A program made the position numbers and the translations under genes. 32,164 nucleotides of DNA from a virus: positions 1-32,164 of IMG/VR virus record IMGVR_UViG_3300013126_000136. One strand, given 5' to 3'. The first letter of the stretch is position 1, and every line of letters begins with the position of its first letter. Of the stretch, positions 24,353 through 29,646 are shown piece after piece. Below the pieces are notes generated by a model, which saw only the letters and a list, made by a program, of their open reading frames with translations, did not search any database and was not told the origin of the DNA.

Positions 24353-24733
24353 TCACTGGTACAAGATGGCCATGGTTGTGGGGAGGTTTGACGCCAAGGG
24401 ATCCGAATAGTACGGCGTCACCCGGATTGTGGCATTGTCAATGATTCTCCACCCCGTCCCGAGGCATGCCACCGCCGCATCCTGGACACGCAAGGGGACA
24501 ATCCCTTGCACCAATTGAGCATTGGGAACTTGAATATCCTTTGGGACGGCATGAGAGAGTTTCACCTCCAACACCAAAGACGCAAGGTTGTCTGAGAGGT
24601 TGAGTTTATTCGTGAGGGCACGTATCACTTGGTCGAAATTCTCATTGATGAAGCTCACCAAGGGTTGAATCTTGCCCCGAATATCGGGGGAGAGTTGGCT
24701 CACCTCAAACAGTTTCACCGCCGATAATCTCAT
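24353..24733 (-). CDS. Small conserved phage structural protein
   Basis: Encodes 126 residues starting MRLSAVKLFEVSQLSPD. It contains FINENFDQVIRALTNKL and DNLASLVLEVKLSHAVPK, a pattern I recall from small beta-rich proteins found near head or tail genes in many phages, but whose role is not known to me. The ATG overlaps the terminase stop (ATGA), with GGAGGAG upstream. It lies between TerL and the scaffold, where some phages place a head-associated protein. Confidence 0.6.
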   Translation of the reverse strand: MRLSAVKLFEVSQLSPDIRGKIQPLVSFINENFDQVIRALTNKLNLSDNLASLVLEVKLSHAVPKDIQVPNAQLVQGIVPLRVQDAAVACLGTGWRIIDNATIRVTPYYSDPLASNLPTTMAILYQ

Positions 24734-26172
24734 TGCTTTCTCCTCCGGTCCGCTTTTTCGAACATCCGCGCCAAGGCCAACAAGCTCTCCTCCTTGGCCT
24801 CCTCCCTCACCACCCGGGTGGTACTCGGGTCCACCCACCGTGCGGGATACGGGTTTTCCCCCGAAATAAGGTCAATCACGCGATACCCGTACATGAGCGC
24901 CGCCACCGCGTCACAATGCCCCAGGGCCTTGGTGCGGCCAAAATCCGTCCCCTGTTTGTTGAGCTTGCCCCATTTGAGCGTTTGCACAAGGAGCGCACAC
25001 CGCGGATGGACCATGACCCGCCCGCGTTGAAAACCCGCCCGGAGCTTTTTGAGAGCCCCCTCAAAATCGGTTTTCGGCGGCAAGGACGCCTCCCACTTGT
25101 GCTCCACCCTCATATCGATGAGGACCTGACCGGAGCCATCCGCCACCCGGTGGCGCACATGCTCTCCCATGGGAGCCTTTTCCAACTCCTTGAAGCCCGC
25201 CACCTGGACCCGCGTGGAGGTCCCAGGCTCATGCTCGGATTCATCCCAGACAAGCACCCGGTCATTTTGAAAGTCATACGCCACGAAATAAGCCGCCGTG
25301 CGGTCAATCATTCCGCCCACGTCCGCCGCAATGATGGCGTGGTAGTGAGAGGGAAGCTCAAACGCCTGCACGTGGCGCTTATCGTCGAATTCCGGCACGG
25401 CCACCGAGGTGGAGCTCCGGAATATCTGGACGAGGTATTCCCTTTTCCACGCGTCCGAATCTTTTCCGCCGCACAACTGAGCCGCTTTCTCGATTTGCTC
25501 CGCTGTGAGCGCGGTATTGGTGAAAATATCGTAGGAGAAAAAGCTTCCCATGAGTTGGGTTTTGGGAATGACTTCCGCATGGATGTAGTGGTTTTCATCC
25601 TCGCTTGGAGTCGTGACGTGGATAAGGCGCCCGCCCGAGCGGAGGAGTTGAGGAGACACAACGGACTTCACCGCATATTCATAATCATCCGAGTCAACAA
25701 ACCCGCCCTCCTCAAGGATAATAAGCCCGGCATTTCCGCCGCGGAGGGTGTTGACGTGCGCTCTCTCCGTGGTCCCAATGCGGAGACTGGAACGGCCTAT
25801 GCGCCACCTCATGCGGGACTTATCGCGCACCACAAGCCCGGGAGGCGCATGAGAAAGAATGGGCTCCAACGCCGTCTCCACAATCTCCTCACACTGGTTT
25901 TTTTTGGGCGCCGCAACGCGGGCAATCCGGGGCTTCACCGAGGCGTCAAATGCCGTCTCCATAAGCCACTCCAGGCACATCACTTGATTCAAAAATGACT
26001 TGCCCCATTGCCGGGAACAAAACACCAAACTCTCATTGATCTCGTGAGGCAATGCCCGGAGTTTTTCATAGACCACCGTTTGATGAGGGTCCAAAATCCA
26101 ATCTCCCACAATACCCTGAGCAAACAGGGCACGGCGAGCCTCCTCCGGGGTCAATGCCTCCAAGTCACTCAT
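24730..26172 (-). CDS. terL: Terminase large subunit
   Basis: Encodes 480 residues, the normal size for TerL. The ATPase half has a Walker A-like CSRQWGKS (residues 52-59), Walker B LIILEE (150-155, catalytic Glu) and the coupling motif TTPS (187-190). The nuclease half has an RNase H-like first acidic residue in AADVGG (Asp284) and HCDAVAAL (Asp421). It docks on the portal, pumps DNA into the prohead and cuts the concatemer. The start overlaps the previous gene as ATGA. The order TerS, small membrane protein, TerL is compact. Confidence 0.9.
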   Translation of the reverse strand: MSDLEALTPEEARRALFAQGIVGDWILDPHQTVVYEKLRALPHEINESLVFCSRQWGKSFLNQVMCLEWLMETAFDASVKPRIARVAAPKKNQCEEIVETALEPILSHAPPGLVVRDKSRMRWRIGRSSLRIGTTERAHVNTLRGGNAGLIILEEGGFVDSDDYEYAVKSVVSPQLLRSGGRLIHVTTPSEDENHYIHAEVIPKTQLMGSFFSYDIFTNTALTAEQIEKAAQLCGGKDSDAWKREYLVQIFRSSTSVAVPEFDDKRHVQAFELPSHYHAIIAADVGGMIDRTAAYFVAYDFQNDRVLVWDESEHEPGTSTRVQVAGFKELEKAPMGEHVRHRVADGSGQVLIDMRVEHKWEASLPPKTDFEGALKKLRAGFQRGRVMVHPRCALLVQTLKWGKLNKQGTDFGRTKALGHCDAVAALMYGYRVIDLISGENPYPARWVDPSTTRVVREEAKEESLLALARMFEKADRRRKQ

Positions 26173-26593: not shown

Positions 26594-27073
26594 TCAGTCC
26601 TCCTTGCGCTTGGCCTGAGCCAACACTTGCGCTTTCTTTTCCGCCGGAAGCTCACGGTAGTTGAACGGCGCATTGATATTTAAGGTCTCGGACCAATCGG
26701 CCTGAGCCTTCATTGCGAATATCCAAGCCGACGCGGAACCGTTGCCGCCGCCTTTTTCCATGAGGGTTTGTCCACGTTTTTCAAACCACAAAAGCCTCTT
26801 GGCTTCCCCTCTTTTTTTAGCGTCCGAAAACTCAGGAAATTGTTTTTCCCACTCGTAAAGCGTGCTTTTCCACACGTCAATCACACCCGCAAATGACTCA
26901 AAACTGAGCCCATTGCCCATATGCCCCACGAGGAGAGCGCAAAACTCCGTCCGATATTTGCTTGGCCGCCCTTCCCTATCGTGCTTAGGCTTTTCCGGGT
27001 GGATTCTTGGGCGCCCCACCTTTCCCTTGCCCACCTTGGGCTTTGCCTTGCTTTTCACCTTTGACGCCGCCAT
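26594..27073 (-). CDS. terS: Terminase small subunit-like DNA-binding protein
   Basis: Encodes 159 residues. A Lys/Gly-rich start contains two GRP cores (GRPRI and GRPSKY), like AT-hook elements. Residues about 50-80 (GLSFESFAGVIDVWKSTLYE) form a helix-turn-helix with the 'W-x-x-TLYEW' pattern of phage small terminases, followed by helices for oligomerisation. It would recognise the packaging site and recruit TerL. GGAGG lies eight bases before the ATG. The 125-bp gap that follows holds only a weak imperfect stem near 26550-26583. Confidence 0.75.
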   Translation of the reverse strand: MAASKVKSKAKPKVGKGKVGRPRIHPEKPKHDREGRPSKYRTEFCALLVGHMGNGLSFESFAGVIDVWKSTLYEWEKQFPEFSDAKKRGEAKRLLWFEKRGQTLMEKGGGNGSASAWIFAMKAQADWSETLNINAPFNYRELPAEKKAQVLAQAKRKED

Positions 27074-27106
27074 TGGGGTAGCCTCCGGTTATGGTTTTGT
27101 CACTTC

Positions 27107-27976
27107 CTATGGTCCTGCCTCATCATTGCGCTCACGCCACCAATCCGCAACGGCGCCGAAAACGTGACGCGCAAACCGTTGCCCCCGTTTGCACCCGATG
27201 GTCTGAGTCTCCAACTCCGTCCGGAGCTTCCGGAAGTCCTCCGCGGCAATGGAGAGCTCATGGAACCGCTCCAGGTAGTGCGTCCTCGGATGTGCGACGT
27301 AAAGCGCCACGACGAAAACCGCCGTCTCCAGGGGCATGGATAGGAGTGTCCGGATGGCCGTGTCATCACCCTTGACCCACTCCGGTTTCCTGCCATACCG
27401 GGCCTCATAGGCAATGCCGTAGGCTTCCCACACCAATGCCATCTCCTTGGCCTGCCCTGGGGTGGACTCGCGCACGCGTGCGCGATCCCCCCTTGTAGTT
27501 TTTTCTTGTGTTTTCTCTTGTTCTAAAGAATGGTCAAGTGACAATTTTTGTCGCTTGCAACTGACAATTTTTGTCACATGGAACTGACAATTTTTGTCAC
27601 TTGGTGGATTTTGCTTGGTAATTTTCGCAGCGGCCTGTTCAAGCATGAGCCGCCCGGACTCCCGGCACGCCTCCACAGCCCCCTCATTGACCGCATACCA
27701 CGCCGTCCTATCCGTTCCCCCGTAGTGCGCCACGTAGATGAATCCCTCATCCACAAGCTCCCCGAGGAGCGTTCTCATCTTGCGGTCCGAGACCATCGGC
27801 ATTTCCGCGGACCACGCTTTTTGCGTGTTGTATGCCCAAACCCGGCCATTCTTGAGGTTTTTTTCGTTGCGCTTGTTGTACGCGCACCAATCCACGATAC
27901 GCTGCAAAACTAATGCCTTTTCAAGTCCGATTTTTGTTGCAATGGCAGCGTCGATAACATAGATTTGCGGGGTCAT
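27107..27976 (-). CDS. Phage replication initiator protein
   Basis: Encodes 289 residues. Residues about 1-90 look like the winged-helix domain of phage replisome organisers (RVWAYNTQKAWSAEMPMVSD, then KMRTLLGELVDEGFIYV). Residues 127-160 are a low-complexity linker encoded by the iterons and AT-rich DNA. The C-terminal part (residues 175-289) is helical and could recruit a host helicase or loader. This is the lambda O arrangement: DNA-binding N-terminus, origin within the gene, C-terminal interaction domain. No ribosome site better than GGGAGA about 12 bases upstream is seen, so translation may be weak. First gene of the leftward late block. Confidence 0.7.
   Translation of the reverse strand: MTPQIYVIDAAIATKIGLEKALVLQRIVDWCAYNKRNEKNLKNGRVWAYNTQKAWSAEMPMVSDRKMRTLLGELVDEGFIYVAHYGGTDRTAWYAVNEGAVEACRESGRLMLEQAAAKITKQNPPSDKNCQFHVTKIVSCKRQKLSLDHSLEQEKTQEKTTRGDRARVRESTPGQAKEMALVWEAYGIAYEARYGRKPEWVKGDDTAIRTLLSMPLETAVFVVALYVAHPRTHYLERFHELSIAAEDFRKLRTELETQTIGCKRGQRFARHVFGAVADWWRERNDEAGP
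27492..27530. other. AT/pyrimidine-rich stretch beside the iterons (candidate unwinding element)
   Basis: A 39-bp run dominated by T on the plus strand (GTAGTTTTTTCTTGTGTTTT and on) in an otherwise GC-rich genome. It directly follows the iterons in the direction of the initiator gene, as the easily melted segment does at lambda ori. Confidence 0.6.
27539..27598. repeat. Three 23-bp iterons inside the initiator gene (candidate origin)
   Basis: The 14-mer TGACAATTTTTGTC occurs exactly at 27539, 27562 and 27585, each separated by a nine-base spacer (GCTTGCAAC, ACATGGAAC). Copies 2 and 3 are symmetric TGACAA-TTT-TTGTCA. The 23-bp period is not a multiple of three, so the repeat is kept at DNA level, not for the protein. 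This is the expected binding array for the initiator that the gene encodes. Confidence 0.9.
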
Positions 27977-28305: not shown

Positions 28306-29646
28306 ATGCCCACATACTTTTCCGTCCTCACCAAGGACGCCTCGGCCCTGTATCTCATCGAAAACCCCGGCGCCAAGCCGGTGGACTTCCGCTCCTTGAA
28401 GGATGAAAACGGAAGCCTCAACACCCAAAAGGCCATTGAGGCATTCACGTGGGCCAAGGGAAAAGGAGCGGGAACGTTTGTTGTCTCCGATGCCCCCGCC
28501 TTGCCCCTCGCCAAGATTGAGCTCAAACATCCCTGGGTCAACGGTGGCGACAATTCCAAGCGGCCCATGATTTTCATGACCCATGATAAGCACATCGAGG
28601 TGGTGGCCGATGGCGACACGGACGCCGATGGAAGCCCGAGAGCCGAGGCCATTGACCCGGGTTGTGGACAAAAGGAGACCTCCCTCCGCAAACCCCAATG
28701 GCTTGGAGAAGGCCAAAACGTGGACTCCGAGTCCATCCCCTACGTGGTCATCCCGGGGAATTTCAATGCGGCCCTCGGCCTCAACGCCGAGGAGCGCACA
28801 AGCGTTGAGCTCTATGACATGTGCCGGGTGGAATTTCAGGGCAAGGTTGTCTATGCAATTGTGGCGGATGTGGGCCCTACGGACCGCATTGGTGAGATGA
28901 GCATTGCCTGTGCCACGGCCCTTGGGTTTGATGTGTGGAACAGGGAAAAAACACGCGTGGTGCGTGGCCTTCCCCATGGCGTCAAGTATGAATTCATCCC
29001 GCAAACCTACAAGGGCACCAACTACAAGCCACCCCGCTCCGCCGATGAAATTAAGGCCCTCGGCCAACACCTGTGGGCAACCCGCGATGAGCCCAAAAAG
29101 TGGACGTTCAAGGGCAAGGGGATTTTGGTCAACCCCGGTCACGGCAAAACAGACTCCGGCGCTCTCGGTGCCAACCGAAACATCACCGAGTATGCGCTCA
29201 ATACCATCCAAGCCCACTACCTCTGCGATGAATTCCGCCGCTTGGGCATTCCGTATGAACTCATCACGCAGGATGACACGGGAGGATATTTGGAGCCCGT
29301 TGGGCAGGCCGCAAAAGGGTTTGACCTGTTCATCTCATGCCATCACAACGCGTTTGACGGCAAGGAGCACGGCGTGGAGGTGTGCACACCCCCGATTGCC
29401 GAGGCCATCGAGGACAAATTAGGGCTCCTCATTTGCGCCAAGATTGCCAAGGCCCTCAATATCCCAAACCGAGGGTTGAAGCCCCGCAATTTGGCGGTCC
29501 TCCGTGGTTGCCGTTCGGTCGATTGTCCCGGTATCCTTGTGGAGAGCCAATTTGTGGACGATGAGCGCGATGAAGCAGAGGCCCAACAAGAGGCCATCAT
29601 TGCCGCAAACTGTATCCTTGAGGCAATCACCGAAACTTTTTCATGA
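28306..29646 (+). CDS. Two-domain endolysin: GH75 chitosanase-like plus Amidase_3
   Basis: Encodes 446 residues. Residues about 95-235 match the pattern of GH75 chitosanases: ADGDTDADG (101-109, acidic), SIPYVVIPG (143-151), GKVVYAIVADVGPTDRIGE (179-197) and a following helix. Residues about 272-442 are a zinc N-acetylmuramoyl-L-alanine amidase: NPGHG (His279), NITEYALN (Glu295), SCHHN (His346/347) and ESQF (catalytic Glu413). It would cut a glycan bond and the amide bond of the cell wall during lysis. No signal peptide is seen, so a holin should release it. GAGAGGTGA lies just upstream. Confidence 0.85.
   Translation: MPTYFSVLTKDASALYLIENPGAKPVDFRSLKDENGSLNTQKAIEAFTWAKGKGAGTFVVSDAPALPLAKIELKHPWVNGGDNSKRPMIFMTHDKHIEVVADGDTDADGSPRAEAIDPGCGQKETSLRKPQWLGEGQNVDSESIPYVVIPGNFNAALGLNAEERTSVELYDMCRVEFQGKVVYAIVADVGPTDRIGEMSIACATALGFDVWNREKTRVVRGLPHGVKYEFIPQTYKGTNYKPPRSADEIKALGQHLWATRDEPKKWTFKGKGILVNPGHGKTDSGALGANRNITEYALNTIQAHYLCDEFRRLGIPYELITQDDTGGYLEPVGQAAKGFDLFISCHHNAFDGKEHGVEVCTPPIAEAIEDKLGLLICAKIAKALNIPNRGLKPRNLAVLRGCRSVDCPGILVESQFVDDERDEAEAQQEAIIAANCILEAITETFS

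Follow-up and report, generated by a model that had tools for sequence, protein, structure and literature searches.

Origins inside initiator genes

Replication origins that lie inside the gene of their own initiator form a class that is already known. In phage lambda, the iterons of ori-lambda are located within the gene of the initiator O (PMC7466680, PMC5043065). The organizers of Tuc2009 (Rep2009) and TP901-1 (ORF13) bind repeats in their own genes that serve as the origin (PMC8965321). Another example is Rep of pSK41, which has a winged-helix N-domain and a C-domain that contacts the host replisome, with four Rep boxes located centrally in rep and a dispensable linker that is encoded by the origin (PMC5703833).

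The window discussed here is the whole stretch of DNA that was analysed, an IMG/VR virus record of 32,164 bases. One of its genes, at 27107-27976, very likely harbours a theta-type phage replication origin inside the coding sequence of its own initiator. As a member of the known class, this origin is ordinary in kind and well supported.

Lambda was used as a positive control: its iterons span 39034-39118, and within the 2 kb examined the 50-bp window of lowest stability was found at 39123. In both systems, the iterons are inverted repeats inside the initiator gene (in lambda they start at 39034, 39054, 39078 and 39101, a spacing of 20-24), an A-rich, least-stable element follows just 3' of them and the central segment of the protein is encoded by the origin. 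The window has three dyads at exactly 23 bp, whereas lambda has four 18-19-mers, and the P-type helicase-loader gene that lies directly downstream in lambda is replaced by the gene of a terminase small subunit. A search for homology to lambda O gave no Phage_rep_O match at E ≤ 1 and an hhalign probability of 0.1%. Judged by its sequence, the window protein is one of the DnaD-like/PHROG 11233 phage initiators and not a homologue of lambda O. The initial annotation had described the locus as the same design as lambda O/ori with different repeats, and its label "lambda-type" therefore holds for design, not for descent.

The likeness to Tuc2009 and TP901-1 is drawn from their published description, in which the repeats are direct repeats. 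RepA_N initiators resemble the window in that the origin boxes are central in the gene and encode the linker between the N- and C-domains. The predicted fold of the window N-domain also resembles that of RepA_N (4pt7/5kbj), but the RepA_N domain profile gave no match to the window protein at E ≤ 1, and RepA_N initiators belong to plasmids whereas the window is from a phage. The initiators of PHROGs 11233, 6493 and 428 (for example Lactobacillus phiLdb, the Bacteroides B124-14 group and Staphylococcus phiIPLA88) share with the window the N-domain, the dyads at 22/23 bp, the AT-rich 12-mers and the recognition code described below. The window differs from them in its own iteron, TGACA-N5-TGTCA, in its C-terminal domain and in the position of the gene next to terminase.

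Anatomy of the locus

The features of the locus, all on the minus strand, are as follows.

27107-27976, minus strand: replication initiator gene, 289 aa, with profile matches to PHROGs 11233, 6493 and 428
27677-27961, minus strand: N-terminal winged-helix DNA-binding domain, residues ~6-100 (AlphaFold2 pLDDT mostly 87-97)
27749-27787, minus strand: recognition helix, residues 64-76, including R65 and R68; modelled as a helix, with residues 68 and 65 covarying with bases 3 and 4 of the iteron half-site
27473-27613, minus strand: predicted disordered linker, residues 122-168 (pLDDT <50); the stretch contains the iterons and the AT-rich element
27585-27599, minus strand: iteron 1 in gene order, TGACAAAAATTGTCA, in-frame translation DKNCQ
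27562-27576, minus strand: iteron 2, TGACAAAAATTGTCA, in-frame translation TKIVS
27539-27553, minus strand: iteron 3, CGACAAAAATTGTCA, in-frame translation RQKLS; its deviation replaces a would-be in-frame TGA stop
27492-27534, minus strand: AT-rich putative unwinding element, rich in purines when read along the gene; contains the 40 bp of lowest stability in the contig
27498-27521, minus strand: two 12-bp near-repeats within the AT-rich element, CAAGAGAAAACA (27498-27509) and CAAGAAAAAACT (27510-27521)
27122-27460, minus strand: C-terminal helical domain, residues 173-285 (AlphaFold2 model, moderate confidence)

The assignment of the gene as an initiator, made at the outset from the letters, is supported by the profile matches: phrog_11233 (replication initiation protein) with E 2.1e-21 over residues 6-103, phrog_6493 (DnaD-like helicase loader) with E 4.9e-15 and phrog_428 (replication initiation protein) with E 2.8e-9. 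Pfam and NCBIfam gave no match worth the name, nor any model for the N-domain, and a sequence search with the window protein returned no solved structure. An AlphaFold2 model was built on 58 family members, in which the winged-helix domain is followed by an extending helix up to residue 120. A Foldseek comparison with solved structures found no neighbour below E 1e-3; the nearest folds to the N-domain (E 3e-3 to 2e-2) were MarR/PadR-like regulators and the RepA_N Rep-DNA complexes 5kbj/4pql/4pt7. Phage replication proteins were among the best-matching viral structure models. The C-terminal domain, which is presumed to contact the host replisome, shows weak similarity to the C-termini of the initiators of Synechococcus Ssp-JY37 and Pseudomonas PotUPM1.

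The 14-mer TGACAATTTTTGTC occurs exactly three times on the plus strand of the 32,164-base window, starting at 27539, 27562 and 27585, and not once on the opposite strand, so that the spacing is exactly 23 and 23 bp. Two of the three iterons are perfect 15-bp dyads, TGACA-ATTTT-TGTCA with the half-site TGACA, while the third ends in TGTCG; this sole deviation reads CGA for TGA, which in this frame would have been a stop codon. The three exact symmetric repeats of 23-bp period that were noted initially are thus present in the number and at the spacing given, except that the dyad spans 15 bp and not 14. In gene direction the copies occupy frames 0, 2 and 1, and a protein repeat cannot explain three different frames; the argument from an out-of-frame period to a DNA-level repeat is borne out. 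The iterons encode residues 125-147 and the AT-rich element residues 148-162, which means that the origin DNA encodes the linker. The model thereby places the repeats in the predicted disordered linker, between the DNA-binding and C-terminal parts, where they had been located initially.

The AT-rich element sits downstream of the iterons in gene direction. Against a contig background of 59% GC, the most AT-rich windows of 40-130 bp in the whole contig lie within 27493-27625, and by nearest-neighbour energy the least stable 40, 50, 75 and 100 bp of the contig start at 27492-27499. Composition and energy agree with the earlier remark that the most AT-rich stretch nearby follows the repeats.

Conservation in the initiator family

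Single-protein searches of IMG/VR and GTDB genomes found no close relative with the same iteron. Dyads of other sequence were found at the same place in the gene in phiLdb, Bacteroides phages, Pseudoalteromonas H6/1, Vibrio 1.091.O, Pantoea AH07, Staphylococcus phiIPLA88 and the plasmid pBVIE05, and, by eye from the sequence, in a homologue on a Pigmentibacter plasmid. In the gene of this last plasmid (L131, 2001-2960), the in-gene array has an inverted repeat with arms of ~29 bp, GATGATCTCGATCCGTCACATCTGTCGGA..., followed by a purine-rich AT stretch.

The first alignment (A1) was too divergent for a pattern search, and counts of palindrome pairs with ungapped arms failed because the dyad centre is an A-tract, outside the dyad. 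Periodicity was measured in the 120 nt that follow the N-domain of 69 non-redundant viral/phage genes, and peaks were found at 22 bp (z 55.7), 44 bp (z 27.3) and 12 bp (z 19.1); a control region 240 nt further downstream in the same 69 genes gave z values of ~0. In a second, separate set, 53 genes taken from bacterial genomes that span several phyla, the same three periods had z 46, 29 and 26. The 12-bp signal of the family is the AT-rich repeat ACAGATATAAAC with its variants, just after the dyads. The window consists of the same two parts, dyads and AT-rich 12-mers, with sequences of its own; its array has a 23-bp step and lies right after the N-domain, as is the trait of the family (22/23-bp period).

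The AT-rich element of the window is adjoined by a perfect 18-bp GC-rich palindrome, TCGCGCACGCGTGCGCGA, at 27468-27485. It was considered as a part of the origin and dropped, as it is not a family trait.

A recognition code between helix and iteron

If the product of the gene reads its own iterons, residues of the recognition helix should covary with iteron bases. The set comprised 284 domains, 158 of them with an iteron call, and 42 non-redundant members with a 4-bp centre were used for training, with the window excluded. Two pairs were the strongest of all columns: residue 68 and base 3 of the half-site, with z 8.7 above the family-wise 99% permutation level of 8.3, and residue 65 and base 4, with z 7.2 above the 95% level of 6.4. 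At residue 68, R/K went with G in 26 of 28 cases, Q/N with A in 5 of 6 and E with C in 3 of 4, which are chemically sensible contacts; at residue 65, K went with C in 12 of 15 and R with A in 7 of 10. The proposed full code reads R/K-G, Q/N-A, E-C and G-T for residue 68, and K-C, R-A and N/D-G for residue 65.

In leave-one-out prediction, both bases were correct for 27 of 36 genes (after shuffling, on average 6.6 and at most 17). Of 32 held-out genes whose dyads have another geometry, 20 contained the triad that was predicted (3.8 after shuffling; 0/2000 as good). After strict redundancy filtering, covariation alone was borderline, with z 7.0 against a 95% level of 7.0 at 70% identity and 4.2 against 6.1 at 60%. 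For this reason, a control against shared ancestry was added, in which all possible pairs of columns of the domain served in turn as the predictor. The pair (68,65) was the best of ~6000 at identity cut-offs of 85% and 70%, and tied best at 60%.

With the window left out of training, R65 and R68 of its protein predict GAC, and the observed half-site is TGACA. The locus L229, with the similar helix SDRQIRK, has the iteron TTGACA. In the window, the GAC triads have a distance of 7 bp and the repeats a period of 23 bp, as against a distance of mostly 6 bp and a period of 22 bp in the family. From the agreement of predicted and observed bases, the initiator's own product very probably binds the iterons, and the recognition proposed initially is supported by both the covariation and the held-out prediction.

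Genomic context and other explanations

The record has no terminal repeats and may be incomplete. Neither a helicase nor a helicase loader could be recognised among the genes of the contig; DnaB_C gave no match, and a Walker A ATPase recognisable as either was not found. Around 26594-27107, the initiator gene is followed immediately by the genes of the small and the large terminase, all on one strand; initiators are not usually located there. The large terminase (24730-26172) has one match to an annotated phage at E ≤ 1e-10, a Silvanigrella aquatica phage at 30% identity. A relative of the initiator is found on a Pigmentibacter plasmid and one of the small terminase in a Bdellovibrio phage; by sequence, these three relatives are hinting at a host among the Bdellovibrionota. 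The endolysin at 28306-29646 combines a chitosanase-like N-part (Glyco_hydro_75, E 7e-7) with an Amidase_3 C-part.

The iteron motif TGACAAAAATTGTCA also forms tandem arrays in contigs of unrelated phages. Exact tandem arrays of GACAAAAATTGTC occur in 28 other IMG/VR stretches, mostly intergenic, and a window-type initiator was not found in the contigs that carry them, many of which are fragments. Roughly one fifth or more of 33 non-redundant arrays adjoin terminase or portal genes, and single-site controls had few terminase neighbours. Such arrays, together with a small terminase gene that begins 34 bp past the initiator gene, would fit dyads that are operators of another DNA-binding protein (a Cro/CI-like repressor or a late-operon regulator) and lie in coding sequence by chance. 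This explanation is unlikely: in the relatives, arrays of dyads with other sequences occupy this position of the gene regardless of which genes adjoin it, the recognition helix of the initiator itself predicts the motif and no regulator matching the motif was identified in the window.

Tandem arrays of GTGACAAAAATTGTCAC are present in L003, L109, L148, L100, L142, L150 and L151 (at 4304, 4090, 5053, 3833, 6225, 5144 and 5462), mostly in steps of 19-23 bp. They precede genes of terminase small subunits that belong to different families, or separate the large terminase gene from the portal gene, and the initiator of the window was not found in these phages.

Small terminase genes (phrog_606/309/51) follow immediately after several of the unrelated motif arrays, and phrog_309 is matched by the small terminase of the window as well. 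This would suit a packaging (pac/cos) site recognised by the small terminase, whose gene is the next one downstream. In the closest relatives of the two terminase subunits of the window, however, the loci examined lack the motif and the whole records lack the initiator, so that in the window phage the motif is associated with the initiator. The array is moreover ~460 bp inside the initiator gene, beside the putative unwinding element, and a role in packaging is very unlikely.

The same low standing is given to autoregulation, whereby the initiator would bind the iterons to control its own gene only and replication would start elsewhere. Binding alone is no proof of origin function, and GC skew, a check proposed in the initial annotation, was uninformative: across the contig it showed no sign change at the initiator gene and no origin signature. 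Against autoregulation stand the unwinding element beside the iterons, the coupling of iterons with AT-rich 12-mers throughout the family and the fact that the in-gene arrays of lambda, Tuc2009/TP901-1 and pSK41 are origins (PMC5043065, PMC8965321, PMC5703833). Finally, chance or a repeat at the protein level is refuted by the three frames and by 2000 synonymous recodings of the gene, in which no 14-mer whatsoever reached three copies (the maximum was one copy in 1973 recodings and two in 27).

Proposed mechanism and implications

The computations themselves show the anatomy of the locus in the initiator gene, the conservation of this anatomy across the family and the fit of the recognition helix to the iterons. 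The winged-helix N-domain would bind the three 23-bp-spaced dyads through the half-site TGACA, probably as one dimer per dyad. The bound array would strain and open the adjacent AT-rich 12-mers, and the C-domain, connected through the flexible, origin-encoded linker, would recruit the host helicase machinery, with replication starting here.

For an uncultured phage, the locus provides an exact and testable candidate origin. The survey of relatives shows that a large family of phage initiators generally has in-gene origins composed of dyads at 22/23 bp and AT-rich 12-mers. The recognition code is the part with reach beyond the window. It probably applies to the whole family of DnaD-like phage initiators, such that origins could be located and iterons predicted from the protein alone, and the window obeys it; a limited literature search found no paper that describes such a code. 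With it, many metagenomic phage origins could be called from sequence and then checked at the bench.
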